The notes under the pieces: generated by a model
Database searches by the model: none
Seen by the model: the letters and a program-made list of their open reading frames with translations, nothing else
What the model was told of the DNA's origin: nothing
Assembly (NCBI RefSeq): GCF_028712425.1
Contig: NZ_JAQTQD010000004.1
Span: 1 to 34,824, forward strand
DNA: 34,824 nt
DNA from: Methanoregula sp.
Lineage (GTDB): Archaea > Halobacteriota > Methanomicrobia > Methanomicrobiales > Methanospirillaceae
Reading direction: 5' to 3'
Made by a program: the position numbers and the translations under genes
Shown: positions 12,330-29,751 of the stretch, one piece after another
Layout: each line of letters starts with the position of its first letter
Position numbering within the stretch: the first letter of the stretch is position 1

Positions 12330-12399
12330 CCCTTTGGAGCCGAGAGAAGGGGAGGGGTAGCTACCCCTGCCTGAGTACGAGGGGTGGGGACCCTCCTGT

Positions 12400-12624
12400 C
12401 CGGGCGGGCATGTGGAGATGGTCGAATCCGGGCTCTAACAGGGCTCCGTTTCCTCTCAAAATCAGGAAATTTGTGACAGTTTCACCAAAAAGTGTGAGTG
12501 TTTCGTGAATTTCTCTGTGGTCCCTGTCTATTTTACGACGGTGAAATGGTTCCGGAACACGAGACAATATGGGACAATTATGGCGAAGGATTGGGAAGGG
12601 GGGCAGGGGAACCAAGGGGGGGTG
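12400..12624. repeat. ~225-bp long direct repeat, copy A
   Basis: From CCGGGCGGGCATGTGGAGATG to a run of G. Nearly the same sequence is at 15600-15823, including CAGGGCTCCGTT, TTTCGTGAATTT, TGTCTATTTTACGACGGTG and AAATGGTTCCGGAACACG. No conserved reading frame is convincing in both copies. Each copy sits just downstream of a winged-helix regulator gene, so it belongs to the duplicated block. It may be a non-coding element or a decayed gene. Confidence 0.8.
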
Positions 12625-12645: not shown

Positions 12646-13449
12646 TTATATGGAATCAGAACTGTGGTCAGCAATTCCCGGTTGCATAATGTCACTCTTT
12701 GAGATCAGGTACTTTTCCAGGTAATTTCGTACTTCCGGGGATATTTCATATCTGGCTTTTTTTCCAACCTTTTCAAGAGATATTAGGCCTGCGTCATTGA
12801 GCCGTTTCGTATACCATGTGATCATTAATCCGGAGATTCCAAGTTTGTTTCCCAATTCTTTCCGGTTCAATTCAGGAGTTTTCATAAGCTGTGTCAGGAT
12901 CTGACAGTCTTTTTTATTCTGAATGAATTTCAGGATATTTTTTTCTGCATCAGAAAAATGATCGGAGTTTTCAAAATACCGGGCATGTCCTTCAGAAGCA
13001 AGGATGGAGACTTTGTTTTCGGTATGTAACATAATGAGATGATACCGGAGTGTGCCGGGCCTGATTCCGGTTTTCCGGGTTATGGCGTTGAAAAAAATGC
13101 CGGGATTTTCCCTGATACACTGATATATCTTCTCCCGCGTATCGTTTTGCAGGATATTTTTTCTCGCAATTTTCCGGTAGCCAAGATACAGATAGAATTT
13201 CGTGAACAGAAATAACTGGGTCATGAGCTCAAGGAGAGGCGAAACAGAAAGAGCAAGGGACAGGATAATGACCTGAAGGGGCAGTTCCCAGAAACTAACC
13301 TCCTTTGTTTCAAATGATATTCCGGGATTCATCCCGGGAGGGACCGGTGAAACGGTGTAGCCCCCTGTATTATCTGCATGAGATGGGACAACCAGTACGG
13401 CAATTAGGATAATTCCAATAAGAATTGATAAAATTCCTCGTGTATACAT
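12646..13449 (-). CDS. Membrane-anchored double winged-helix regulator, block 1
   Basis: A 267-residue protein: signal-like helix (about 4-25), a ~28-residue extracellular stretch (NTGGYTVSPVPPGMNPG), a long hydrophobic region (about 53-83, FWELPLQVIILSLALSV), then two cytoplasmic winged-helix domains. wHTH1 is about 103-160 (REKIYQCIRENPGIFFNAITRKTGIRPG with recognition helix TLRYHLIMLH), wHTH2 about 165-250 (NRKELGNKLGISGLMITWYTKRL). It is probably a one-component transcription regulator that senses something outside or in the membrane. Start is ATG 13449 (a TTG lies just before). It is 42 nt downstream of the secreted protein gene at 13492 on the same strand, so they likely form an operon under the 13984-14006 operator. 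Paralogue at 16149. Confidence 0.85.
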   Translation of the reverse strand: MYTRGILSILIGIILIAVLVVPSHADNTGGYTVSPVPPGMNPGISFETKEVSFWELPLQVIILSLALSVSPLLELMTQLFLFTKFYLYLGYRKIARKNILQNDTREKIYQCIRENPGIFFNAITRKTGIRPGTLRYHLIMLHTENKVSILASEGHARYFENSDHFSDAEKNILKFIQNKKDCQILTQLMKTPELNRKELGNKLGISGLMITWYTKRLNDAGLISLEKVGKKARYEISPEVRNYLEKYLISKSDIMQPGIADHSSDSI

Positions 13450-13491
13450 CAATAATAATTATTCCTGTTCTTATCAAAAAAAGGGTTGTGG

Positions 13492-13944
13492 TTAATACCC
13501 TGATGCTGAATACGAATACGTTTGTGTTCCGGCGATTGAACTGCCATACACTTTCGATGACCAGGTTCCGGAGGAAAGTCCTGTTGACCGATACACCATC
13601 AGGTGTATACGCCCGTCAATCACTCCATCAGCAGCATCATAATAGGGTCCAAGAATGGATATATCCGGGGTATAAAAGGTCAATGAGAGTGAGTTCGAAG
13701 GCTGCCCCCAGTTCAGATCAGAGATGAACGTTGTCGATCCGGATGGAACATATGTTGTATGCCAACGTGTCTGCCCCTGGGTCAGCGAATACGAAGTCAG
13801 CGACGAAAATGTCGCGAAGCGTTGAGTCGTATCAACCGTTGTGACGACATATCCGTCTTTTTCTTCAACAACCTTTGCCGATACTGCCGGTATGGCCAGT
13901 GCCAGACCAACGATAACCAATAACGGTAACCAGTGAACCTTCAT
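13492..13944 (-). CDS. Secreted beta-rich protein, block 1
   Basis: A 150-residue exported protein with a signal peptide (MKVHWLPLLVIVGLALAIPAVSA). The mature part is strand-rich: QGQTRWHTTYVPSGST, DLNWGQPSNSLSLTFYTPD, GPYYDAADGVIDGRIHLMV and GTWSSKVYG. This resembles pre-peptidase C-terminal (PPC)-like jelly-roll domains, which usually accompany secreted peptidases, but here the domain stands alone. The frame stays open to TTG at 13993, but ATG 13944 is preceded by GTGATACC (GTGAT Shine-Dalgarno) and begins the signal peptide. The operator at 13984 is 40 nt upstream, with a TATA-like TTATATC between. A paralogue with the same layout is at 16994. Confidence 0.82.
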   Translation of the reverse strand: MKVHWLPLLVIVGLALAIPAVSAKVVEEKDGYVVTTVDTTQRFATFSSLTSYSLTQGQTRWHTTYVPSGSTTFISDLNWGQPSNSLSLTFYTPDISILGPYYDAADGVIDGRIHLMVYRSTGLSSGTWSSKVYGSSIAGTQTYSYSASGY

Positions 13945-13983
13945 GGTATCACGGGTGAGCGTTACATGGCAGATATAATCCCT

Positions 13984-14006
13984 TTTGTCGGTCAAAACTT
14001 AACACG
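13984..14006 (-). promoter_or_regulatory. Operator 1 (block 1, leftward)
   Basis: On the minus strand this reads GTTAAGTTTTGACCGACAAA and is followed by a TATA-like TTATATC. It is 40 nt upstream of the ATG at 13944; block 2 has the same distance. It faces operator 2 as an inverted pair. It also contains an imperfect palindrome TTTTG-N5-CAAA. Confidence 0.8.
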
Positions 14007-14018
14007 TTATTTGAAAGG

Positions 14019-14040
14019 TTAAGTTTTGTACGACAAATCG
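14019..14040 (+). promoter_or_regulatory. Operator 2 (block 1, rightward, before the short unit)
   Basis: TTAAGTTTTGTACGACAAA then TCG and the TATA-like TTAATAAA. It differs from the consensus by one dinucleotide (GTAC for GACC). The conserved 20-codon ORF starts 67 nt downstream, the same distance as in block 2. Confidence 0.8.
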
Positions 14041-14060
14041 TTAATAAAAAGATGAAAAAT

Positions 14061-14200
14061 GTGGAAAGGCGGCCATCGTCCAGATGCCCGCCAATCCGGA
14101 GAGATCATGGTATCACATCCCTTCCTTCTCCGGATTGAATTTTTCAGATTCTTTCATTGCAGCGGATAAGAAACCGGGTTTCCTGTTTGCATGCGTATGG
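14061..14200 (+). ncRNA. Conserved double-hairpin short transcript, block 1 (candidate)
   Basis: Expected to start about 20-25 nt after the TATA-like box. Hairpin A pairs GGCGG (14068-14072) with CCGCC (14088-14092). Hairpin B pairs AATCCGGAGA (14093-14102) with TCTCCGGATT (14127-14136), ten perfect base pairs, and follows A without a gap. The loop of B (14103-14126) holds CATGGTATCAC. The block 2 copy keeps both stems with consistent base changes. The 3' end is not defined. It may be a separate small RNA or the first part of a longer leader that reads on into the gene at 14419. Confidence 0.5.
14107..14169 (+). CDS. Conserved 20-codon ORF inside hairpin B, block 1
   Basis: ATG at 14107 to TAA at 14167-14169 encodes MVSHPFLLRIEFFRFFHCSG. 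The block 2 copy has the same length and 16 of 20 identical residues (pattern MVSHPF.LR..FF.FFHCSG), with several silent third-base changes (CCC/CCT, TTC/TTT, AGC/AGT). GGAGA lies 4 nt before the ATG but is inside the 5' arm of hairpin B, so translation would depend on opening the stem. It could be a leader peptide or a side effect of RNA-structure conservation. No function is known. Confidence 0.4.
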   Translation: MVSHPFLLRIEFFRFFHCSG

Positions 14201-14204
14201 ATAT

Positions 14205-14227
14205 GTTAACTTTTGACCGACAAATCG
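14205..14227 (+). promoter_or_regulatory. Operator 3 (block 1, before 14419)
   Basis: GTTAACTTTTGACCGACAAA then TCG and TATTTAAG as TATA-like box. One base differs from consensus (C for G in TTAAG). The start codon of the secreted protein gene is 192 nt downstream. Confidence 0.85.
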
Positions 14228-14256
14228 TATTTAAGAGCAAATATATCTCCTGTTGT

Positions 14257-14418
14257 GGACGACCGGAGGTCGTTCCGATAAAAGAGAACGGGCCCCCCCC
14301 AAATCGAAGCGCGGCTGGACCCGGATCTGCCCGACGGTACGTGAAGAGTGGCTTCTGATTTTCCGAAGATAATCTTCAGTGTCGGTGAGCGGAGCTTAAA
14401 AAATGGAGTTGAAGAAAA
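14257..14418 (+). promoter_or_regulatory. Structured 5' leader 1
   Basis: Untranslated leader of the gene at 14419. It begins with the hairpin GGACGACC-GGA-GGTCGTTCC, then a GC-rich part with CGGGC pairing to GCCCG, then GAAG..CTTCTGATT followed by a second GAAGAT/ATCTTC stem, and the conserved GGTGAGCGGAGC near the 3' end. The same order of elements is in leaders 3, 4 and 5; leader 2 keeps only the first hairpin and parts of the 3' end. Confidence 0.7.
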
Positions 14419-15087
14419 ATGAACACATCTAAAACATGGGTCGCCCTGCTTGCACTTTTGCTGGCGGCGATGGCGATGGTACCTCTAGTGAGTGCAGCGG
14501 ACACATCGGATTCCCAAATGTCCTCCGATTCCGCCCGATTTATGAATTGGGCATATCAAAATGAAGGAAAAGTTGTTACTGCTGCACAATGTCTTGAAAT
14601 AAGTGCCCCGGGATATTGGGCGAATCTTTCTGTGGAAAAGAAAAAAGCCTATTCTGAAATAACGGTAGAGATTCCCAATTTCCATTCACAAAAACTGAGT
14701 GATGGCCCGGTTTCTGCAACAGCACAGCCCGTGAGCAGAACCTCAGGAATCCGGAGTATGATCGTGTACATAGCAACTGCGAACAGTGCTACATCAGCAG
14801 TTCCCGGGGCAATTAACTACTGGGCCAGTACATCAAACACGCCCACCGCATTCCCGGTTACTAATATTATTGCGCAGCTGTGCAGGTGGGATGGATCTCA
14901 ATGGGTTATTGCAGATCAGGGAACAGTAACCGATTATTACACAACATTTTCTGAAGTCTGGAAAAACAAGCTGTTGCCCTCTTCTGGACAATACAAAACG
15001 TACTCTCAGCACTATGGTGATTTTCCGCCAAACGCAGAACCATCCGTATACTACATTACCCGGTGGTCGAATCAGGTAACATACTAA
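14419..15087 (+). CDS. Secreted protein of unknown function, cassette 1
   Basis: A 222-residue exported protein. The signal peptide (MNTSKTWVALLALLLAAMAM then VPLVSA) is almost the same as those of four other genes in the window, while the mature part is unrelated to them. The mature protein has an N-terminal helical stretch (SARFMNWAYQNEGKVVTAAQCLE), then a beta-rich domain (SGIRSMIVYIATAN, INYWAST, AQLCRWDGSQWVIADQGTV) ending YYITRWSNQVTY. No family is recognised and no catalytic motif is visible. It is under operator 3 with a 160-nt structured leader. Its stop overlaps the end of the convergent TPR gene by 4 nt. Confidence 0.75.
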   Translation: MNTSKTWVALLALLLAAMAMVPLVSAADTSDSQMSSDSARFMNWAYQNEGKVVTAAQCLEISAPGYWANLSVEKKKAYSEITVEIPNFHSQKLSDGPVSATAQPVSRTSGIRSMIVYIATANSATSAVPGAINYWASTSNTPTAFPVTNIIAQLCRWDGSQWVIADQGTVTDYYTTFSEVWKNKLLPSSGQYKTYSQHYGDFPPNAEPSVYYITRWSNQVTY

Positions 15088-15485: not shown

Positions 15486-15599
15486 ACATTATTTTCGTGT
15501 TTTGTGAATAAAATGTTCATTCAAAATATGGTGTCTTACCTTGTTGTAAATACCTAATGCCGTGGAGGTGTCAGTATGGAGGAGGGGCATTCCTCAACT

Positions 15600-15823
15600 C
15601 CGGGCGGGCATGTGGAGATGGGGGAATTCGGGCCCGTACAGGGCTCCGTTCCCCATCAAAATCAGAAAATTTGTGATAGTTTCGCCAAAAAGCGGGACTG
15701 TTTCGTGAATTTCCCTGAAATTTCTGTCTATTTTACGACGGTGAAATGGTTCCGGAACACGGGACAATATGAGACAATTAGGGCGAAGGATTGCGAAGGG
15801 GGGCAGGGTAACCCAGGGGGGGG
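15600..15823. repeat. ~225-bp long direct repeat, copy B
   Basis: Second copy of the element at 12400-12624, mostly colinear, with scattered substitutions and almost no indels by eye. The rest of the 15486-16148 gap (15824-16148) is GC-rich at first, then holds GGACAAATTCGCCAAAATGGGG-like short direct repeats (for example two copies of an AAATGGGG/AATTCCCCATTT inverted stretch at 15930-15985) and no supported gene. Confidence 0.8.
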
Positions 15824-16148: not shown

Positions 16149-16952
16149 TCATGCGGATTGAGAAATGTTGTCGGCCATTCCTGTTTGCATAATGTCACTC
16201 TTTTGGATCAGGTATTTTTCCAGATAATTCCGTACCTCCGGCGGTATTTCATACCTGGCATTTTTTCCAGACTTTTCAAGAGATATTATACCGGCGTCAC
16301 TGAGTCGTTTCGTATACCATGTAACCATTAATCCGGAAATCCCCAGTCTGTTTCCCAGCTCCTTCCGGTTTATCTCAGGATCATTCATGAGCAACAGCAG
16401 GATCCGCCGGTCTGTTGTATTCTGGATGAATTTTAAAACGATCATTTCCCGGCCGGAATATTTTTTGGATTTTTCAAAATATCGTGCGTTTCCTTCAGAC
16501 TCAAGGATGGAAATTTTTTTGTTTGTGTGCAATAGTATCAGATGGTAGCGGAGTGTTCCTCGTTTCACACCGGTTTTCCGGACGATCTCATTGAAAAAGA
16601 TACCGGGATTTTCCTGGATGCACTGATAAACCTGTACCCGGGTATCGTTAAAAAAAAGGTTTTTTCTGGCAACTTTCCGATAGCCCAGATACAGGTAGAA
16701 TTTTGTGAACAGGACCACTTGAGTTACTAGTTCAAGAAGCGGCGAAACGGACAGGGCGAGGGACAGAAGAATAACCTGGAGGGGTAGTTCCCAGAAACTG
16801 ACCTCTTTTGTCGCAAATGGGGTTCCCGGATCCATTCCTGAAGGAACCGGCGAGACGATATATCCGCCAAAATTCTCTGCGGTGGCATGGCCAACCATGA
16901 GTGGGCAGATGGATAAAAGAATGAAAAATACCAGGAATCGTGAAGTATTCAT
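16149..16952 (-). CDS. Membrane-anchored double winged-helix regulator, block 2
   Basis: Paralogue of the protein at 12646, same layout: signal-like helix (FLVFFILLSICPLMVG), short extracellular stretch (GGYIVSPVPSGMDPGTPF), conserved membrane region (FWELPLQVILLSLALSVSPLL), winged helix 1 (NPGIFFNEIVRKTGVKRG and TLRYHLILLH), winged helix 2 (NRKELGNRLGISGLMVTWYTKRL). The membrane region and both recognition helices are the most conserved parts between the two, so they probably recognise similar DNA, while the N-terminal signal region has diverged. Start is ATG 16952; a TTG lies two codons upstream. It lies downstream of, and is probably cotranscribed with, the gene at 16994. Confidence 0.85.
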   Translation of the reverse strand: MNTSRFLVFFILLSICPLMVGHATAENFGGYIVSPVPSGMDPGTPFATKEVSFWELPLQVILLSLALSVSPLLELVTQVVLFTKFYLYLGYRKVARKNLFFNDTRVQVYQCIQENPGIFFNEIVRKTGVKRGTLRYHLILLHTNKKISILESEGNARYFEKSKKYSGREMIVLKFIQNTTDRRILLLLMNDPEINRKELGNRLGISGLMVTWYTKRLSDAGIISLEKSGKNARYEIPPEVRNYLEKYLIQKSDIMQTGMADNISQSA

Positions 16953-16993
16953 CGACAATACTTTTTCTCCCCGTTATGAAAAAAGGGTTGTGG

Positions 16994-17449
16994 TCAATAT
17001 CCGGATGCAGAGTATGAATAGGTCTGTGTTCCGGTTACCGAGCTTCCGTACACCTTCGATGACCAGGTTCCTGAGGGAAGGCCACCGGAACGGGTTACCA
17101 TCAGGTAGATACGACCATCGATGACTCCATCGGCAGGATCGTAATACGGTCCGAGTACCGATGCATCCGGTGTATAGAGGGTTAACGCCAGTGAGTTTGC
17201 GGAAGTCCCCCAGTTCAGGTCGGAAAAGAACCTTGTCGCACCCGATGGAACGGATGTCGTGTGCCAGCGGGTCTGGCTCTGGGTAATGGTATACGATGTT
17301 AATGCAAAAACATCGGCGAACCGTGACGGTGCATTTTCAACAGTAGTGACAGTATACCCGTCCTTTTCTTCGATTACCTTTGCCGATACCGATGGAATGG
17401 ACAGTGCCAATCCAACAATGAACAACAGTGCTAGCCAGTGAACCTTCAT
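16994..17449 (-). CDS. Secreted beta-rich protein, block 2
   Basis: Paralogue of the protein at 13492, 151 residues with signal peptide MKVHWLALLFIVGLALSIPS. Conserved elements include EEKDGYTVTTVE, QSQTRWHTTSVPSGAT, DLNWGTSANSLALTLYTPD, GPYYDPADGVIDGRIYLMV and GTWSSKVYGSSVTGTQTYSYSASGY; the C-terminal 25 residues are nearly identical to those of block 1, which suggests strong constraint or recent conversion. ATG 17449 follows GTGATACC. A likely role is as extracellular partner or input for the adjacent membrane regulator, since the pair is kept together in both blocks (inference). Confidence 0.82.
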   Translation of the reverse strand: MKVHWLALLFIVGLALSIPSVSAKVIEEKDGYTVTTVENAPSRFADVFALTSYTITQSQTRWHTTSVPSGATRFFSDLNWGTSANSLALTLYTPDASVLGPYYDPADGVIDGRIYLMVTRSGGLPSGTWSSKVYGSSVTGTQTYSYSASGY

Positions 17450-17488
17450 GGTATCACAGGGTAGCATGAAGCGGGATGGATAATCCCT

Positions 17489-17566: not shown

Positions 17567-17705
17567 GTGGAATGGCGGTTGTTGTTTTATTCCGCCAATC
17601 CGGGGAGAAACCATGGTATCACATCCTTTCTCTCTCCGGGTTGTATTTTTTCAGTTTTTTCATTGCAGTGGATAAGAAGCCGGAGTTCCCGTTTGCGGGA
17701 GACCG
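17567..17705 (+). ncRNA. Conserved double-hairpin short transcript, block 2 (candidate)
   Basis: Hairpin A pairs GGCGG (17574-17578) with CCGCC (17592-17596). Hairpin B pairs AATCCGGGGAGA (17597-17608) with TCTCTCCGGGTT (17631-17642), twelve pairs including two G-T(U). Compared with block 1, the changed bases keep pairing (T-A to T-G, A-T to G-T, plus added pairs), and the loop CATGGTATCACATCC is unchanged. Loop A differs freely in sequence and length. This is what a structured RNA would show, from only two copies. Confidence 0.5.
17613..17675 (+). CDS. Conserved 20-codon ORF inside hairpin B, block 2
   Basis: ATG 17613 to TAA 17673-17675, same length as the block 1 ORF, pattern MVSHPF.LR..FF.FFHCSG with S, V, V and Q at the four variable positions. 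GGGGAGA lies 4 nt before ATG, within the 5' arm of hairpin B. No function is known. Confidence 0.4.
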   Translation: MVSHPFSLRVVFFQFFHCSG

Positions 17706-17710
17706 GACAT

Positions 17711-17733
17711 GTTAAGTTTTGGCCGACAAATCG
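17711..17733 (+). promoter_or_regulatory. Operator 6 (block 2, before 17933)
   Basis: GTTAAGTTTTGGCCGACAAA then TCG and TTTATTA as TATA-like box. The start codon of the protease gene is 200 nt downstream. Confidence 0.85.
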
Positions 17734-17763
17734 TTTATTATTCCCTGACAAAACGTCCGGTGT

Positions 17764-17932
17764 GGACAGCCGGAGGTTGTTCCTATGCAGGAGATAGGTA
17801 ACATCACATCCCAATGACCTTCCCCCTCTTGCATCTCTGCAGGTATTTCCTGCCCTGCCACGAGGCAGTTCTGATCTGGATTGCCAAGCGGTAGCTATCG
17901 AAAAAAGAAAGATGAAACGAGGTAATGAAAAC
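17764..17932 (+). promoter_or_regulatory. Structured 5' leader 2 (divergent)
   Basis: Begins 31 nt after the operator with hairpin GGACAGCC-GGA-GGTTGTTCC. The middle differs from the other leaders, but TTCTGAT and GCCAAGCGGTAGC near the 3' end match the TTCTGATT and GCCGGTGAGCGGAGCC elements there. Total length agrees with the others. GAGGT then AATGAAAAC sets the start of the gene. Confidence 0.6.
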
Positions 17933-20842: not shown

Positions 20843-20865
20843 GTTAAGTTTTGACCGACAAATCG
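20843..20865 (+). promoter_or_regulatory. Operator 7 (before 21061)
   Basis: GTTAAGTTTTGACCGACAAA then TCG and TATTTAAG. Identical to the consensus; start codon 196 nt downstream. Confidence 0.9.
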
Positions 20866-20895
20866 TATTTAAGAAAAAGTATATTTTCCTATTAT

Positions 20896-21060
20896 GGACG
20901 ACCGGAGGTCGTTCCGATAAATGAGAACGAGCCTGCCTCATATTGAAATGCGGCCAGGCCCTGCCCCTGCCCGAAGGCATGTGAAGATTGTCTTCTGATT
21001 CTCTGAAGATTTTTCTGTGCCGGTGAGCGGAGCCTCTAGAAAAAATGGAGTTGAAGAAAA
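20896..21060 (+). promoter_or_regulatory. Structured 5' leader 3
   Basis: Hairpin GGACGACC-GGA-GGTCGTTCC 31 nt after the operator, then GAAGATTGTCTTCTGATT, CTGAAGAT and GCCGGTGAGCGGAGCC. The last 15 nt before the ATG (AATGGAGTTGAAGAAAA) equal those of leader 1, so the gene pair 14419/21061 shares the whole cassette from operator to signal peptide. Confidence 0.72.
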
Positions 21061-22107
21061 ATGAACATACCTAAAACATGGGTCGTCCTGCTGGCACTAT
21101 TGCTGGCGGCGATGGCGATGGTACCGATGGTGAGTGCGGAAGATAATTCTCAAATAGCAACGGAGATCACTGATAAAGACATCCAGGCGATTTTTGATTC
21201 TGCATATGGATCTTTACCGGCATTCCATGATGAAAAAACGAAAACCGTCTATCTTGAAGAGTATGTAAGTCCAGCGCAGAAAGCAATCGATCTTATGGAG
21301 TCGAAACAGTACTCCAAAGCACAAATCACTGCAATACTTGAAAAGAATGGATACGGCTGGAATCCGGATACCGGAGCCTGCTGGAAAGGTACTGCACCGA
21401 CAGATGCAGAACAATCACTTATCAATAAAATCCGTGGTGAGGATTATTCCCCATTTGACCGTGAAGAAGAGAGTCAGAAATTACTACGACATATTGATGA
21501 CTGGCGTCAGGAATACCGACAGTTGAAGACAGTATCAGGCTCAACATTTTATGGTGTGAATGATTACATGAAACCTGGTCAGATGGTCACCAGTTCATCG
21601 GGAACCACTCAGCATGTTGTAACAACCCATGTTGGCCGAAGACCAAATCCCTCGACAGAATGCTGGACAGAAGCCGGTGTAGCTGATTCTATTGCAGACC
21701 CCCAAAGACGCTACTTCACGTACGACAATGATGAGGGCGGCTGGAGCTGGCACGGGAATGCCGGTGCAACCACAACAAAAAATTATGAAATCTATGTGAC
21801 CAGTACGCTAGAAAGTGCAGGATATACGTATCATATCTGGATCGATGGTGCATGGGTACGGACAGGTCACCTAGCATACCGGGAGAATTTTGTTGATCAA
21901 GCCAATGAAATCTGGGCTGATGGAAGTAATGCATTCTCCTCAGATCCCAGTATTTCGGAATTCAGGGACAGTACCCTATACCGTAGTTCAGGTAATGTGA
22001 AGTGGGCGACAAATGTTGCGACAGAATTTAATCATGTTGGAACTGCAATCTCAGAAAGCAGGGTTGTATCAGGAAATGCATATGACTGGCAGATGTGGAT
22101 TCCCTAA
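21061..22107 (+). CDS. Secreted protein of unknown function, cassette 3
   Basis: A 348-residue exported protein with the common signal peptide (MNIPKTWVVLLALLLAAMAM then VPMVSA). The first half is helical and charged (YVSPAQKAIDLMESKQYSKAQITAILEKNGYGW). The second half is beta-rich and aromatic (GWSWHGNAGATTTKNYEIYV, ESAGYTYHIWIDGAWVRTGHL, WQMWIP), like a carbohydrate-binding or concanavalin-like domain; this is an appearance only. No catalytic motif is clear. Under operator 7 with leader 3. The lipoprotein gene at 22082 starts 26 nt before its end, so translation is probably coupled. Confidence 0.75.
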   Translation: MNIPKTWVVLLALLLAAMAMVPMVSAEDNSQIATEITDKDIQAIFDSAYGSLPAFHDEKTKTVYLEEYVSPAQKAIDLMESKQYSKAQITAILEKNGYGWNPDTGACWKGTAPTDAEQSLINKIRGEDYSPFDREEESQKLLRHIDDWRQEYRQLKTVSGSTFYGVNDYMKPGQMVTSSSGTTQHVVTTHVGRRPNPSTECWTEAGVADSIADPQRRYFTYDNDEGGWSWHGNAGATTTKNYEIYVTSTLESAGYTYHIWIDGAWVRTGHLAYRENFVDQANEIWADGSNAFSSDPSISEFRDSTLYRSSGNVKWATNVATEFNHVGTAISESRVVSGNAYDWQMWIP

Positions 22108-23112: not shown

Positions 23113-23157
23113 GTTCCCTGAACGCAATCGGCAACATAATTCTCTTGGATGGAAACG

Positions 23158-23882
23158 ATGACCTCACACAAACAATACCTTCTTCTTTTTTTCGCAATCA
23201 TCGTTGTCAGTATAATACTCGCTGTGGGACTATTCGAAGGTCTCAAGACCGATCCGACACCCCCCATGATTCGAACGGGGTGGTACCTCCCTCACAATAC
23301 TATTGTATGGGCCATTGCGGAACCCGGAATGAACCAGGCCCAATCGGAGCGTTTCGTCCTTTCCGGCGAATATGATGGACCAGCACAACAGTTTCCCCCC
23401 TCTCACCATATGCCCGGTACGAGAACTATACCCGGGAAAAAACCGGTGACCGATATATGATTGCGGTCTGGTATTTCACGAAAGAGAGTGCCTTTCTGTC
23501 ATCGAAAAAAAAGCTTAATGAGTATCTCACTACTTCAGGAACGGTTACACGTGTCTCTCTGAATTATTCCGGATTTGTTTCAACAGATCAATACAACCTT
23601 ACTCCCATCGGCCCCTCAGCCATACCGTTGTTACCAGAACACCTTGTAACAACCGGGTATGAGAGCAGCAATACTTCGGGCTTGTTTTATACGATAGAAA
23701 TCCCCGGGACCAGGGAACAAAACGGCGGGGTGCAAACCAGCGCAGGCAACGAGTACTATATTGTATATTACGGGATTGAAGAACCGTTTGGGCTATCATC
23801 CCGGTTGGATCTTATCAGAGACCTCATCGGGCATACTTTTACCTTCGATGGGACACATTCTGCAGGTCCGCTCCTGATGTGA
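23158..23882 (+). pseudogene. Membrane-anchored protein split by a frameshift, copy 1
   Basis: Two frames that overlap by ATGA: 23158-23460 (membrane helix LLLFFAIIVVSIILAVGLF, then PMIRTGWYLPHNTIVWAI and GEYDGPAQQFPP) and 23457-23882 (MIAVWYFTKESAFLSSKKKL to the end). In the second frame the sequence upstream of its ATG reads LSPYARYENYTREKTGDRY, which continues QQFPP naturally if one more C were present in the run CCCCCC near 23395-23400. So the ancestral product was most likely a single ~240-residue protein. Possibilities: frameshift mutation, -1 slippage on Pro-Pro codons, or two coupled genes. The same sequence at 27481 has the same C6. No family is recognised. Confidence 0.75.
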
Positions 23883-24011: not shown

Positions 24012-24034
24012 GTTAAGTTTTGACCGACAAATCG
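24012..24034 (+). promoter_or_regulatory. Operator 8 (before 24234)
   Basis: GTTAAGTTTTGACCGACAAA then TCG and TATTTATAA. Consensus; start codon 200 nt downstream. Confidence 0.9.
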
Positions 24035-24064
24035 TATTTATAATAAACTATAATTTGAACCCGT

Positions 24065-24233
24065 GGACAGCCGGAGATTGTCCCAGAACCAGAGAACGGG
24101 CCCGCCCCGGATCGAAATGCGGCTGGACCCGGATCCTGCCCGAATGCACGTGAAGATAGTCTTCTGATTCACTGAAGGTTTCTTTGTGCAAGCGAGCGGA
24201 GCCAATGGAAAAAATCTAAGGACGTGATAAAAA
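24065..24233 (+). promoter_or_regulatory. Structured 5' leader 4
   Basis: Hairpin GGACAGCC-GGA-GATTGTCC, then CGGGC..GCCCG pairing across GGATCGAAATGCGGCTGGAC, GAAGATAGTCTTCTGATT, CTGAAG and GCAAGCGAGCGGAGCC. Compared with leader 1, the first stem has paired changes (G-C to A-T, A-T to G-T). GTGAT before A5-ATG serves as Shine-Dalgarno. Confidence 0.72.
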
Positions 24234-25271
24234 ATGCTACTTGGAAAATTCAACATCCTGCTGCTGGCGCTGCTGGTAGCGGCGATGGCGATGGTGCCGT
24301 TTGTAAGTGCCACAAATGGAGACGACGTATATTACAAAAATATTCTCATCTCATCTTTCGGAAATTTGTCTGGTGATATGCAAAAGAATATCGCTGTAAC
24401 AAATTCGGTTCCGGATACGTGGGTCGATCAGCTCCAAAAAGTAACTGCTGATGCTGATAAGGATCTTGATAAATATTATTATCCAAATGGGCCGGTAATC
24501 GGCCATGGATATGATATGTACGGGACAATGGATGTCCAGATCAATAAAGACATGAAAGTGGATCCCACCTTGATAAAAGAAATTTATGAAGTAATTAAGA
24601 AAGATGGGGAGAGAAATGGGGTTAAAGACATTCCTTGTAAATTTCTGTCTATCGGTCTGATGAAAGTTGAGTCAAGGTTCGACAAGATCAGGCCTGTCGT
24701 TGGAGGAATTGAATTATCCTCTACTAATGGATGGGGCACAACGGGTTTCCGTGGAAGGAATAGTGCGGGAACTCTTGGTATTGTTACTGCCGGACATATT
24801 GGAACGCTGAATGCAGCTGCTTACCAGCCGGACTCAAGTGTCAGTGGTTCCTATGTCGGTACGATATCGACTCTTGGAACTACGCTCTCCGATTCAGCAT
24901 TTATTCCATACAGCAATACTGCCGGCACTTTTTACCAATCGGATGGAATATATGTCACTTATCTCGGCTATGGAGATCCGATTACCGGTCAGACAGTGTA
25001 TAAAAATGGCGCTGCAACAGGTCTGACATCTGGATCGGTCCTGTTCTTCAATTCCGCATATAACCCGTATCTCGGTAAAAGACTTCCGAACCAGGCATTT
25101 GCCTCGTATTCTTCAGCCTCAGGGGACAGCGGAGCTCCAATTTATTATAAACCGAGTACGTTTGTGAACATACTCACGGGAATCCATATGGGAAGTGTCG
25201 ATCCGGGTTACGGTGTGTTCAGCACGATACCCGCAGTTGACAGTGACCTTGGAATCACCCCCTCCCTTTAA
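24234..25271 (+). CDS. Secreted trypsin-like serine protease, cassette 4
   Basis: Exported S1-type (chymotrypsin-fold, streptogrisin-like) protease, 345 residues. Signal peptide MLLGKFNILLLALLVAAMAM then VPFVSA. The residues 27-160 form a propeptide or N-terminal domain (KYYYPNGPVIGHGYDMYG and DIPCKFLSIGLMKVESRF). The catalytic domain begins about 168 with the triad His188 (VTAGHIG), Asp220 (TLSDSAFIP) and Ser299 (SASGDSGAPIYY). It acts outside the cell on proteins. Under operator 8 with leader 4. The gene at 25463 is a truncated copy of its propeptide half. Confidence 0.9.
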   Translation: MLLGKFNILLLALLVAAMAMVPFVSATNGDDVYYKNILISSFGNLSGDMQKNIAVTNSVPDTWVDQLQKVTADADKDLDKYYYPNGPVIGHGYDMYGTMDVQINKDMKVDPTLIKEIYEVIKKDGERNGVKDIPCKFLSIGLMKVESRFDKIRPVVGGIELSSTNGWGTTGFRGRNSAGTLGIVTAGHIGTLNAAAYQPDSSVSGSYVGTISTLGTTLSDSAFIPYSNTAGTFYQSDGIYVTYLGYGDPITGQTVYKNGAATGLTSGSVLFFNSAYNPYLGKRLPNQAFASYSSASGDSGAPIYYKPSTFVNILTGIHMGSVDPGYGVFSTIPAVDSDLGITPSL

Positions 25272-27365: not shown

Positions 27366-27484
27366 TGAAACAGAAGAAATTGTGTCTCATGTTCGGTTTT
27401 GTTTTGCTGATTCTGCTCTGGATTCGCTGGGAGCGGTTGCGGAGTATTCCCGGCCCACATAATTCTCTCGGAGGGAAACGATGA
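27362..27484 (+). CDS. Small single-helix peptide, 40 residues
   Basis: ATG at 27362 overlaps the propeller stop as ATGA, and its own stop overlaps the next start at 27481 as ATGA, so translation would be coupled on both sides. It encodes MMKQKKLCLMFGFVLLILLW then a basic tail. One membrane helix with a positive N-terminus. It may be a real coupling peptide or the remnant of a gene joined by the 1-kb duplication, whose left border (27457) lies within it. Confidence 0.4.
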   Translation: MMKQKKLCLMFGFVLLILLWIRWERLRSIPGPHNSLGGKR

Positions 27485-28205
27485 CCTCACACAAACAGAA
27501 CTTTCTTCTTTTTTTCGCAATCATCGTTGTCAGTATAATAATCGCTGTGGGACTATTCGAAGGTCTCAAGACCGATCCGACACCCCCCATGATTCGAACG
27601 GGGTGGTACCTCCCTCACAATACTATTGTATGGGCCATTGCGGAACCCGGAATGAACCAGGCCCAATCGGAGCGTTTCGTCCTTTCCGGCGAATATGATG
27701 GACCAGCACAACAGTTTCCCCCCTCTCACCATATGCCCGGTACGAGAACTATACCCGGGAAAAAACCGGTGACCGATATATGATTGCGGTCTGGTATTTC
27801 ACGAAAGAGAGTGCCTTTCTGTCATCGAAAAAAAAGCTTAATGAGTATCTCACTACTTCAGGAACGGTTACACGTGTCTCTCTGAATTATTCCGGATTTG
27901 TTTCAACAGATCAATACAACCTTACTCCCATCGGCCCCTCAGCCATACCGTTGTTACCAGAACACCTTGTAACAACCGGGTATGAGAGCAGCAATACTTC
28001 GGGCTTGTTTTATACGATAGAAATCCCCGGGACCAGGGAACAAAACGGCGGGGTGCAAACCAGCGCAGGCAACGAGTACTATATTGTATATTACGGGATT
28101 GAAGAACCGTTTGGGCTATCATCCCGGTTGGATCTTATCAGAGACCTCATCGGGCATACTTTTACCTTCGATGGGACACATTCTGCAGGTCCGCTCCTGA
28201 TGTGA
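27481..28205 (+). pseudogene. Membrane-anchored protein split by a frameshift, copy 2
   Basis: Same pair of frames as at 23158: 27481-27783 and 27780-28205, again joined by ATGA and again with CCCCCC (27718-27723) where seven C would fuse them. The start has a strong GGAGG Shine-Dalgarno 6 nt upstream, better than copy 1. The 141-residue second part is identical to that of copy 1 at the protein level. Confidence 0.75.
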
Positions 28206-28334: not shown

Positions 28335-28357
28335 GTTAAGTTTTGACCGACAAATCG
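28335..28357 (+). promoter_or_regulatory. Operator 9 (before 28558)
   Basis: GTTAAGTTTTGACCGACAAA then TCG and TATTTATAA. Consensus; inside the 1-kb repeat; start codon 201 nt downstream. Confidence 0.9.
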
Positions 28358-28387
28358 TATTTATAATAAACTATAATTTGAACCCGT

Positions 28388-28557
28388 GGACAGCCGGAGG
28401 TTGTCCCAGAACCAGAGAACGGGCCCGCCCCGGATCGAAATGCGGCTGGACCTGAACTCTGCTTTATGGTACGTGAAGATGGTCTTCTGATTTTCTGAAG
28501 ATTTTCTCATGCCGGCGAGCGGAGGCTCTGGAAAAAATCTAAGGACGTGATCAAAAA
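28388..28557 (+). promoter_or_regulatory. Structured 5' leader 5
   Basis: Hairpin GGACAGCC-GGA-GGTTGTCC, then GAAGATGGTCTTCTGATT, CTGAAGAT and GCCGGCGAGCGGAGGC. The first half is shared with leader 4, the second half is diverged from it but closer to leaders 1 and 3 in the CTGAAGATTTTC and GCCGG parts. Confidence 0.72.
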
Positions 28558-29751
28558 ATGCAACTTGGAAAATTAAACATCCTGCTGCTGGCGCTGCTGG
28601 TGGCGGCGATGGTGATGATACCGTGCGTGAGTGCGGTGGAAGAACAACAAGAGCAGGAGAAAATGATTCAGGCAGATCCAAAAACGGATTTGGCTGGATA
28701 TGTCCCGGTAGATATCCTCAGCATCGATCCATCGGTAAAAGCAGCTACTCCCTATTATTATCTTCTCGTTCTGAGTGATGAGGGGAAAAAGCATTTACTG
28801 GACAGTATTGATGCCGCTGAAATAATTGGCGATTCAGGAATCACGGCAACACCGGATGAGAAAGTCTCCTTCAAAAAGAGTCTTAAAACCCTCTGGATGA
28901 ACTATCCTGTTGTTTCCAAAACAGTCAAGGGTTCTTTGGGATATCCCTCGTATGGAGGAACTGTGACAACCCTGACATTCTCCCCGTCTCTGAAAAAAGA
29001 AGTTCACCTGTCGGATGCTGAAAACAGCCTTCTTGCAAAAGTCCAATCCCGAAAACAAGTATCATCCGACAAGATCGCTTCCGGGGGAGTCTCTCCCAAA
29101 TGGGCAGGATCACCAACACATGAACGGATCAGTTACTGGGCAGCATCCAAGGAATCGTTCCCCCAGCCATCAACTGTTTCTGCAAATGCGCCCGTTCCAG
29201 ATACCTGGCCGGCAGTCTTACCCGAACCATTCTGTACATTATACCGGTCACTCAACCATTATTACAGCCCAAACACCGGAACTGGAAACGCTCCTTCTCA
29301 AACAGCTACGTATATCAGCGCCGCAAATTCGCAATATAAAGCAGGATCGTCATATTACACTCAGGCCGCAACCAGCCTGGGCTATGCATCACATTTCCTT
29401 GAGGATGTCGGGAATCCCATGCACACCGGAAAAGAAACTGAACAGTACAGCAATCCATGGGTCCATTTTAACTATGAAGCATATGTAGGCGACCGCTGGT
29501 ATTCCAGTAATTTTGACACTGTAGTCTCCAACAACAATAACTACTATTGGTATACTGACTGGGCTGCGGGCAACCGGGCACTGGCTGGATACTCGAACGG
29601 GTATCTGGATACCATTTACACGAAGGTATACAATAAAGGCCAGAATTGGAACCTGAGCCAAGACACCAGTATCGATGCCATTACTCAGAACCTGGTACTG
29701 GCAACGGCAAAATATACCAATGGCCTGGCGTTGTATGCACGGATTGGCTAA
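28558..29751 (+). CDS. Secreted zinc-dependent phospholipase C/P1 nuclease-like protein, cassette 5
   Basis: Exported enzyme of 397 residues. Signal peptide MQLGKLNILLLALLVAAMVM then IPCVSA. Residues about 30-175 are an N-terminal pro-region. The catalytic part (about 180-397) has the metal-binding pattern of zinc phospholipase C and S1/P1 nucleases: THERISYW (His188), SLNHYYSP (His234), YASHFLEDVGNPMHTG (His279, Asp283, His289) and WVHFNYE (His303). It probably cleaves phospholipids or other phosphodiesters outside the cell. Archaeal membranes carry ether lipids, so the target could be foreign membranes (speculative). Under operator 9 with leader 5. Confidence 0.85.
   Translation: MQLGKLNILLLALLVAAMVMIPCVSAVEEQQEQEKMIQADPKTDLAGYVPVDILSIDPSVKAATPYYYLLVLSDEGKKHLLDSIDAAEIIGDSGITATPDEKVSFKKSLKTLWMNYPVVSKTVKGSLGYPSYGGTVTTLTFSPSLKKEVHLSDAENSLLAKVQSRKQVSSDKIASGGVSPKWAGSPTHERISYWAASKESFPQPSTVSANAPVPDTWPAVLPEPFCTLYRSLNHYYSPNTGTGNAPSQTATYISAANSQYKAGSSYYTQAATSLGYASHFLEDVGNPMHTGKETEQYSNPWVHFNYEAYVGDRWYSSNFDTVVSNNNNYYWYTDWAAGNRALAGYSNGYLDTIYTKVYNKGQNWNLSQDTSIDAITQNLVLATAKYTNGLALYARIG

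Follow-up and report, generated by a model that had tools for sequence, protein, structure and literature searches.

We describe a predicted two-hairpin RNA that is encoded beside a secreted-protein operon of Methanoregula sp. and whose loop is complementary to the start region of that operon. With a probability that we put at about 0.7, the short unit is the gene of a small regulatory RNA that masks the ribosome binding site (RBS) and start codon of its neighbour and exerts negative feedback. A promoter divergent to the operon of the secreted protein and a winged-helix regulator would, under a common operator, give a transcript of ~75-80 nt that folds into two adjacent hairpins and terminates in a U-rich tail. 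In hairpin B, the exposed loop would present CAUGGUAUCAC, exactly complementary to GUGAUACCAUG, the stretch at the 5' end of the neighbour's mRNA that contains the Shine-Dalgarno (SD) sequence and start codon. Pairing of loop and message over 11-14 bp would block the entry of ribosomes, so that activation of the operator would yield the inhibitor as well; the feedback would act on the secreted protein and, via the operon, possibly on the regulator. While we infer transcription, duplex formation, repression and feedback from the sequence, the conserved structure, the loop, its pairing potential and the linkage to the target are direct results of the computation.

The window, i.e. the whole analysed stretch of 34,824 nucleotides, contains two blocks about 3.5 kb apart that are alike in gene order. 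In each, a leftward operon encodes a secreted 150-aa protein and then a membrane-anchored winged-helix regulator; the short unit is divergent to it, and a cassette gene for a secreted protein points rightward. The putative target gene of block 1 (MKVHWLPLL...; ORF at 13492..13944, minus strand) is followed by the regulator gene at 12646..13452 (minus strand), whose product matches HTH_24 and HTH_HVO_0163_N above the Pfam cut-offs. Their counterparts in block 2 lie at 16994..17449 (minus strand, ORF starting at 17449) and 16149..16958 (minus strand, assigned by Pfam search). For the target protein itself, no Pfam family scored above its cut-off; homologs of its gene are present in 103 of 232 genomes of Methanomicrobiales. 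The small RNA is predicted at 14068..14145 in block 1 and, by a covariance model match (fold z -4.25), at 17574..17652 in block 2, both on the plus strand.

RNA copies were gathered from paralogous and orthologous loci, aligned and built into a covariance model. Since the first MAFFT alignments misplaced one arm in some copies, a model-fitted alignment was used and the unfitted alignment A3 served as a check. The search with the model found 28 copies of the RNA (25 distinct) in 10 of the 232 Methanomicrobiales genomes, seven of which belong to the family of the window's organism and three to another. The block 1 copy matches the model at 14068-14142 with 79 bits and folds with -33.2 kcal/mol (z -4.4); single-copy folds gave z values of -3.1 to -5.0 in six of seven cases and -1.7 for L077. 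Hairpin A (GGCGG...CCGCC; 14068..14092, plus strand) shows double-sided changes in 7 of its 10 pairs across the 25 distinct copies, and hairpin B (14093..14136, plus strand; arms 14093-14103 and 14126-14136, loop 14104-14125) in 8 of 11. These 15 of 21 base pairs account for 57 double-changed cells compared to 24.8 expected (0/500 shuffles). These counts, the covariation score of 0.368 versus 0.220 when shuffled (0/500) and the share of paired cells, 87% versus 36-52% when the structure is slid, come from the 28-copy alignment, which was fitted to the structure and hence leans towards it. In an unfitted ten-sequence alignment, double-sided changes still affect 11 of 21 pairs, and the score is 0.402 versus 0.253 shuffled (0/500). 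The stretch at 14137..14145 (plus strand), 3' of hairpin B, reads as a U-rich, terminator-like tail, which is less clear in L018. Rfam contained no family matching at the gathering threshold and, for 13900-14420, none even at E<=5. Three further model hits (L089, L146 and L151) were discarded as they lack the loop, apparently are coding DNA and look like chance matches.

While the stems vary, the loop core is nearly invariant across the 25 distinct copies. Its conservation as part of a translated short ORF (MVSHPF...) or leader peptide is highly improbable, even though the C18-type copies, and only these, contain a 20-codon ORF (MVSHPFxLRxxFFxFFHCSG) that opens at the loop ATG and has a common stop in four copies. 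The preliminary description had named conservation of the loop merely for its MVSH codons as an outcome that would speak against the regulatory RNA. The frame downstream varies, however, and the peptides past the loop are unrelated in L017, L018, L027, L068/69, L077-80 and L147. The SD upstream of this ORF is not conserved either, and the three G070 copies L092, L097 and L106 have CATAG and hence no ORF ATG. A conserved reading frame typical of a small protein or leader peptide was thus not found, an antisense ORF fails likewise, and the stems covary as RNA.

An operator-like sequence, TTAAGTTTTGACCGACAAA, stands before each promoter in both blocks. In block 1, the TATA-like box of the small RNA, TTAATAAA (14041..14048, plus strand), is centred at position -23 relative to hairpin A's foot, and in most copies the TATA-like centres lie 22-27 nt before this foot. 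An operator-like half site 5' of the RNA promoter (GTTAAGTTTTGTACGACAAATCG; 14018..14040, plus strand) is 90% complementary to the half site of the leftward promoter (13984..14003, minus strand), and a matching operator sequence is found upstream of the promoter of the secreted-protein cassette (14205..14227, plus strand). The common operator proposed earlier for the neighbouring promoters applies to most loci; operators differ in L018, L077-L080 and family f6, where the layout is the same. The RNA begins ~125 bp from the start of the target gene and runs divergently; a cis-antisense RNA was rejected because the RNA does not overlap its target. Further RNA copies lie before cassettes at L016:785-861, L016:3757-3831, L067:198-272 and L142:5750-5826. 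They have intact loops but neither a divergent target nor the usual operator-promoter and are probably untranscribed recent duplicates.

Based on the TATA position, the target mRNA is expected to begin with GTGATACC or a few bases further upstream, so that the RNA would cover the very 5' end, the SD and the start codon. A duplex in this terminal position could also protect the message, and sRNA154 both represses and activates, acting on different targets (PMC5867862). Stabilization or activation of the message by the RNA, paired as described here, is nevertheless quite unlikely as a duplex over the SD and start codon should prevent initiation.

The sequence TCATGGTATCAC occurs on the plus strand at 14105-14116 in the hairpin B loop and at 13941-13952 at the start of the leftward gene, which reads GTGATACCATGAAGGTTCACTGG (M K V H W..., ATG at 13944); the latter match is the complement of this gene's GTGATACCATGA. 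Within this stretch, the near-invariant loop core CATGGTATCAC (14106..14116, plus strand) is the perfect complement of the target site GTGATACCATG (13942..13952, minus strand) composed of SD, spacer and start codon. In block 2, the loop core CATGGTATCAC at 17612..17622 (plus strand) pairs with the target site GTGATACCATG at 17447..17457 (minus strand), with complementarity spanning 12 nt in total (CATGGTATCACA). The perfect 12-nt complement claimed for each block in the preliminary description was confirmed, with the true coordinates of the block 1 match one base to the left of those first given. Duplexes of the RNA with the two targets in the window are predicted at -20.0 and -20.9 kcal/mol. 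Pairing with the start of the regulator itself is weak (-8.4 and -6.5 kcal/mol), so any effect on the regulator would run through the operon. Other local genes, i.e. cassette or regulator starts, reach -6 to -11 kcal/mol with the loop; the downstream cassette gene of block 1, which has the same operator (14419..15087, plus strand), is not a predicted target (-7.2 kcal/mol). A role of the RNA as leader or attenuator of the cassette gene was discarded on account of this weak pairing with cassette starts (-6 to -11 kcal/mol) and because several linked copies (e.g. L078-L080) have no cassette promoter just downstream.

Throughout the 2.67-Mb genome (56 contigs), the 11-mer CATGGTATCAC occurs 17 times and its reversed pattern not once, which argues against a chance match of loop and start. 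The 17 sites are six hairpin loops, five starts of the target family and six SD-starts of unrelated genes. As the sequence is always found at gene starts outside the loops, the loop is complementary to a start signal that is ordinary in this organism: GTGAT-N3-ATG (GTGATNNNATG) occurs at 89 sites compared to 9 in the control, and part of the match thus reflects the normal signal. The ACC spacer is present in only a small share of the GTGATNNNATG sites outside the RNA and target loci, and this spacer and its persistence are the specific part of the match. A real RNA whose loop is a general anti-SD mimic or acts on other genes in trans, with the neighbour matching because both resemble canonical starts, is unlikely. 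The loop GGTATCACATCC does resemble the 3' end of archaeal 16S rRNA, and starts of the type GTGATACYATG are found at other genes in most RNA-bearing genomes. However, the ACC spacer and the AUG lie outside any anti-SD, the RNA is linked to one gene family, and pairing is lost where the family member is dead or absent. Among the GTGATACYATG genes, no recurrent trans target common to all RNA-bearing genomes was found; these genes differ between genomes, and conserved trans targets were accordingly dismissed. A 201-aa protein has such a start in four genomes, one of which has CC and the other three CT. The fact that GTGATACCATG is a normal start found at other genes weakens the case for specificity in trans. 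A comparison of the 25-nt loop duplex with 283 background starts was only moderately specific because stem bases are included in the 25 nt; the own target was mostly outperformed by 0-7 background starts, by 26 for L079 and by 210 for L070.

Masking of the neighbour's start is further supported by the relatives. Among the 17 RNA copies located beside target start regions, 16 keep a pairing of 11-14 nt, across two families, with duplexes mostly between -19 and -24 kcal/mol and motif-to-motif distances of 160-169 bp. The linked loop core is kept everywhere except for two C-to-T (wobble) changes and the second copy of G068. Three independent substitutions fall into kept pairs, namely C-to-T changes in the loops of L079 (G070) and L148 (G219) and a further C-to-T change in the target of G070, and each leaves a G-U pair. 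In G070, the target start is GTGATACTATG and the near-identical orphan RNAs L092/L097 read CATAGTATCAC, a perfect 13-nt complement, whereas their counterpart L093 in G069 reads CATGGTATCAC and the G069 target start is unchanged. This suggests compensation between loop and target, based on one event of one inferred base change. The independent drift of loop and target that would have spoken against regulation was, with one exception, not observed beside target start regions. Pairing was lost in copies linked to a pseudogene (L098/L104, loop ATGGCTCAC), in orphan copies whose target is absent (L100, L106) and in the second G068 locus (L070), the exception, in which the target is intact but the loop is broken (TTTTTGGTCACATCC); G068 has another intact RNA. 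Counter to the proposed role, the RNA loops of G221 (L147) and the start regions beside them are intact while the two linked targets are disrupted a short way into the gene. Nearly all homologs in genomes lacking the RNA have other start regions, such as GTGATTCC in G049 and GTGATCGC in G040, and those of at least a dozen more distant homologs are quite different; as an exception, G041 keeps GTGATACCATG / GTGATACC with no RNA detected. The repeated CATGGTATCAC could also be a DNA site bound by a protein at both places, as a direct repeat ~163 bp apart in the same orientation and with near-constant spacing (160-169 bp). We regard this as very unlikely because it leaves unexplained both the two covarying hairpins around one copy and the precise coincidence of the other copy with SD and ATG, and because the changes in kept pairs follow G-U rules. 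Overall, the RNA probably blocks translation of the secreted protein, a proposal now supported as far as sequence can support it.

A point against the proposal is the restriction of the RNA to 10 of 232 genomes. The targets of family f6 are 68-72% identical to some Methanoregula copies and thus closer to these than these are to others in their genus, so horizontal spread is likely and the conservation would be shorter than it looks. The target protein tree is poorly resolved, and gains and losses of the RNA cannot be counted from it. As nearly all loops are alike, the copies could also act in trans on paralogous targets. It is a tentative and rather doubtful idea that RNA, secreted protein and membrane-anchored regulator form a self-linked module which spreads among methanogens by duplication and transfer, and that the RNA copies, including orphans, cross-repress all paralogous targets. 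If true, a shared cross-repressing RNA network would coordinate families of secreted-protein cassettes.

To our knowledge, a target and pairing site are known for very few archaeal sRNAs. For the RNA described here, a predicted target, a pairing site and natural variants are at hand; it is present in several paralogs and also in species whose genomes are complete, and the covarying family allows loop-mediated masking of start codons in archaea to be tested at the level of base pairs. Multi-copy redundant sRNAs such as the Qrr RNAs of Vibrio have the same pairing region in several copies; unlike these, most copies here are linked to their own target, and no homology is claimed. Perfect complementarity and a position beside the target are shared with cis-encoded antisense RNAs, yet here the transcripts do not overlap, and the match is a short motif at a distance of ~163 bp within one DNA strand. 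The intergenic sRNA154 of Methanosarcina mazei masks the RBS of glnA2 mRNA with an anti-RBS segment in its loop 2 (PMC5867862). The two-hairpin RNA likewise has stem-loops and an anti-RBS segment in a loop. In contrast to sRNA154, which is described as nitrogen-regulated and as having several targets (PMC5867862), its predicted target is encoded divergently next to it, complementarity extends over the start codon, and the RNA has an operator in common with its target; the comparison relies on this published description, and the two-hairpin RNA has no Rfam match. sRNA162 of the same species masks an RBS in a neighbouring transcription-factor operon with a single-stranded region (PMC3510493). 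It pairs by a linker, masks the RBS of the second cistron and has a 5' end antisense to another gene, whereas the two-hairpin RNA would use a hairpin loop and bind the first cistron. Like RNAs of the sRNA154/sRNA162 type, the latter has a conserved structure in which an anti-RBS segment is exposed; the family, although of a known kind, looks new, and so does the self-linked arrangement.

Several repeats were observed in and around the window. A 244-bp repeat (85% identical) lies beyond the downstream end of each regulator gene (12379-12622 and 15579-15822), and two near-identical two-ORF units at 23149-23882 and 27481-28205 apparently stem from a recent duplication. The secreted-protein cassettes form a series (14205-14419, 17711-17912, 20843-21061, 24012-24234 and 28335-28558, and also on L016) with one common operator; their long 5' leaders (GTGGACAGCCGGAGGTTGTCC...) and their signal peptides resemble each other but the mature parts differ, which looks like cassette duplication. 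At L016:1-320 lies an array of tandem repeats (CTCGAAGACTTCGTCTTCTCCGTCTCGAGGTTTGATAACCTCTTGAAT), part of which is masked as N.
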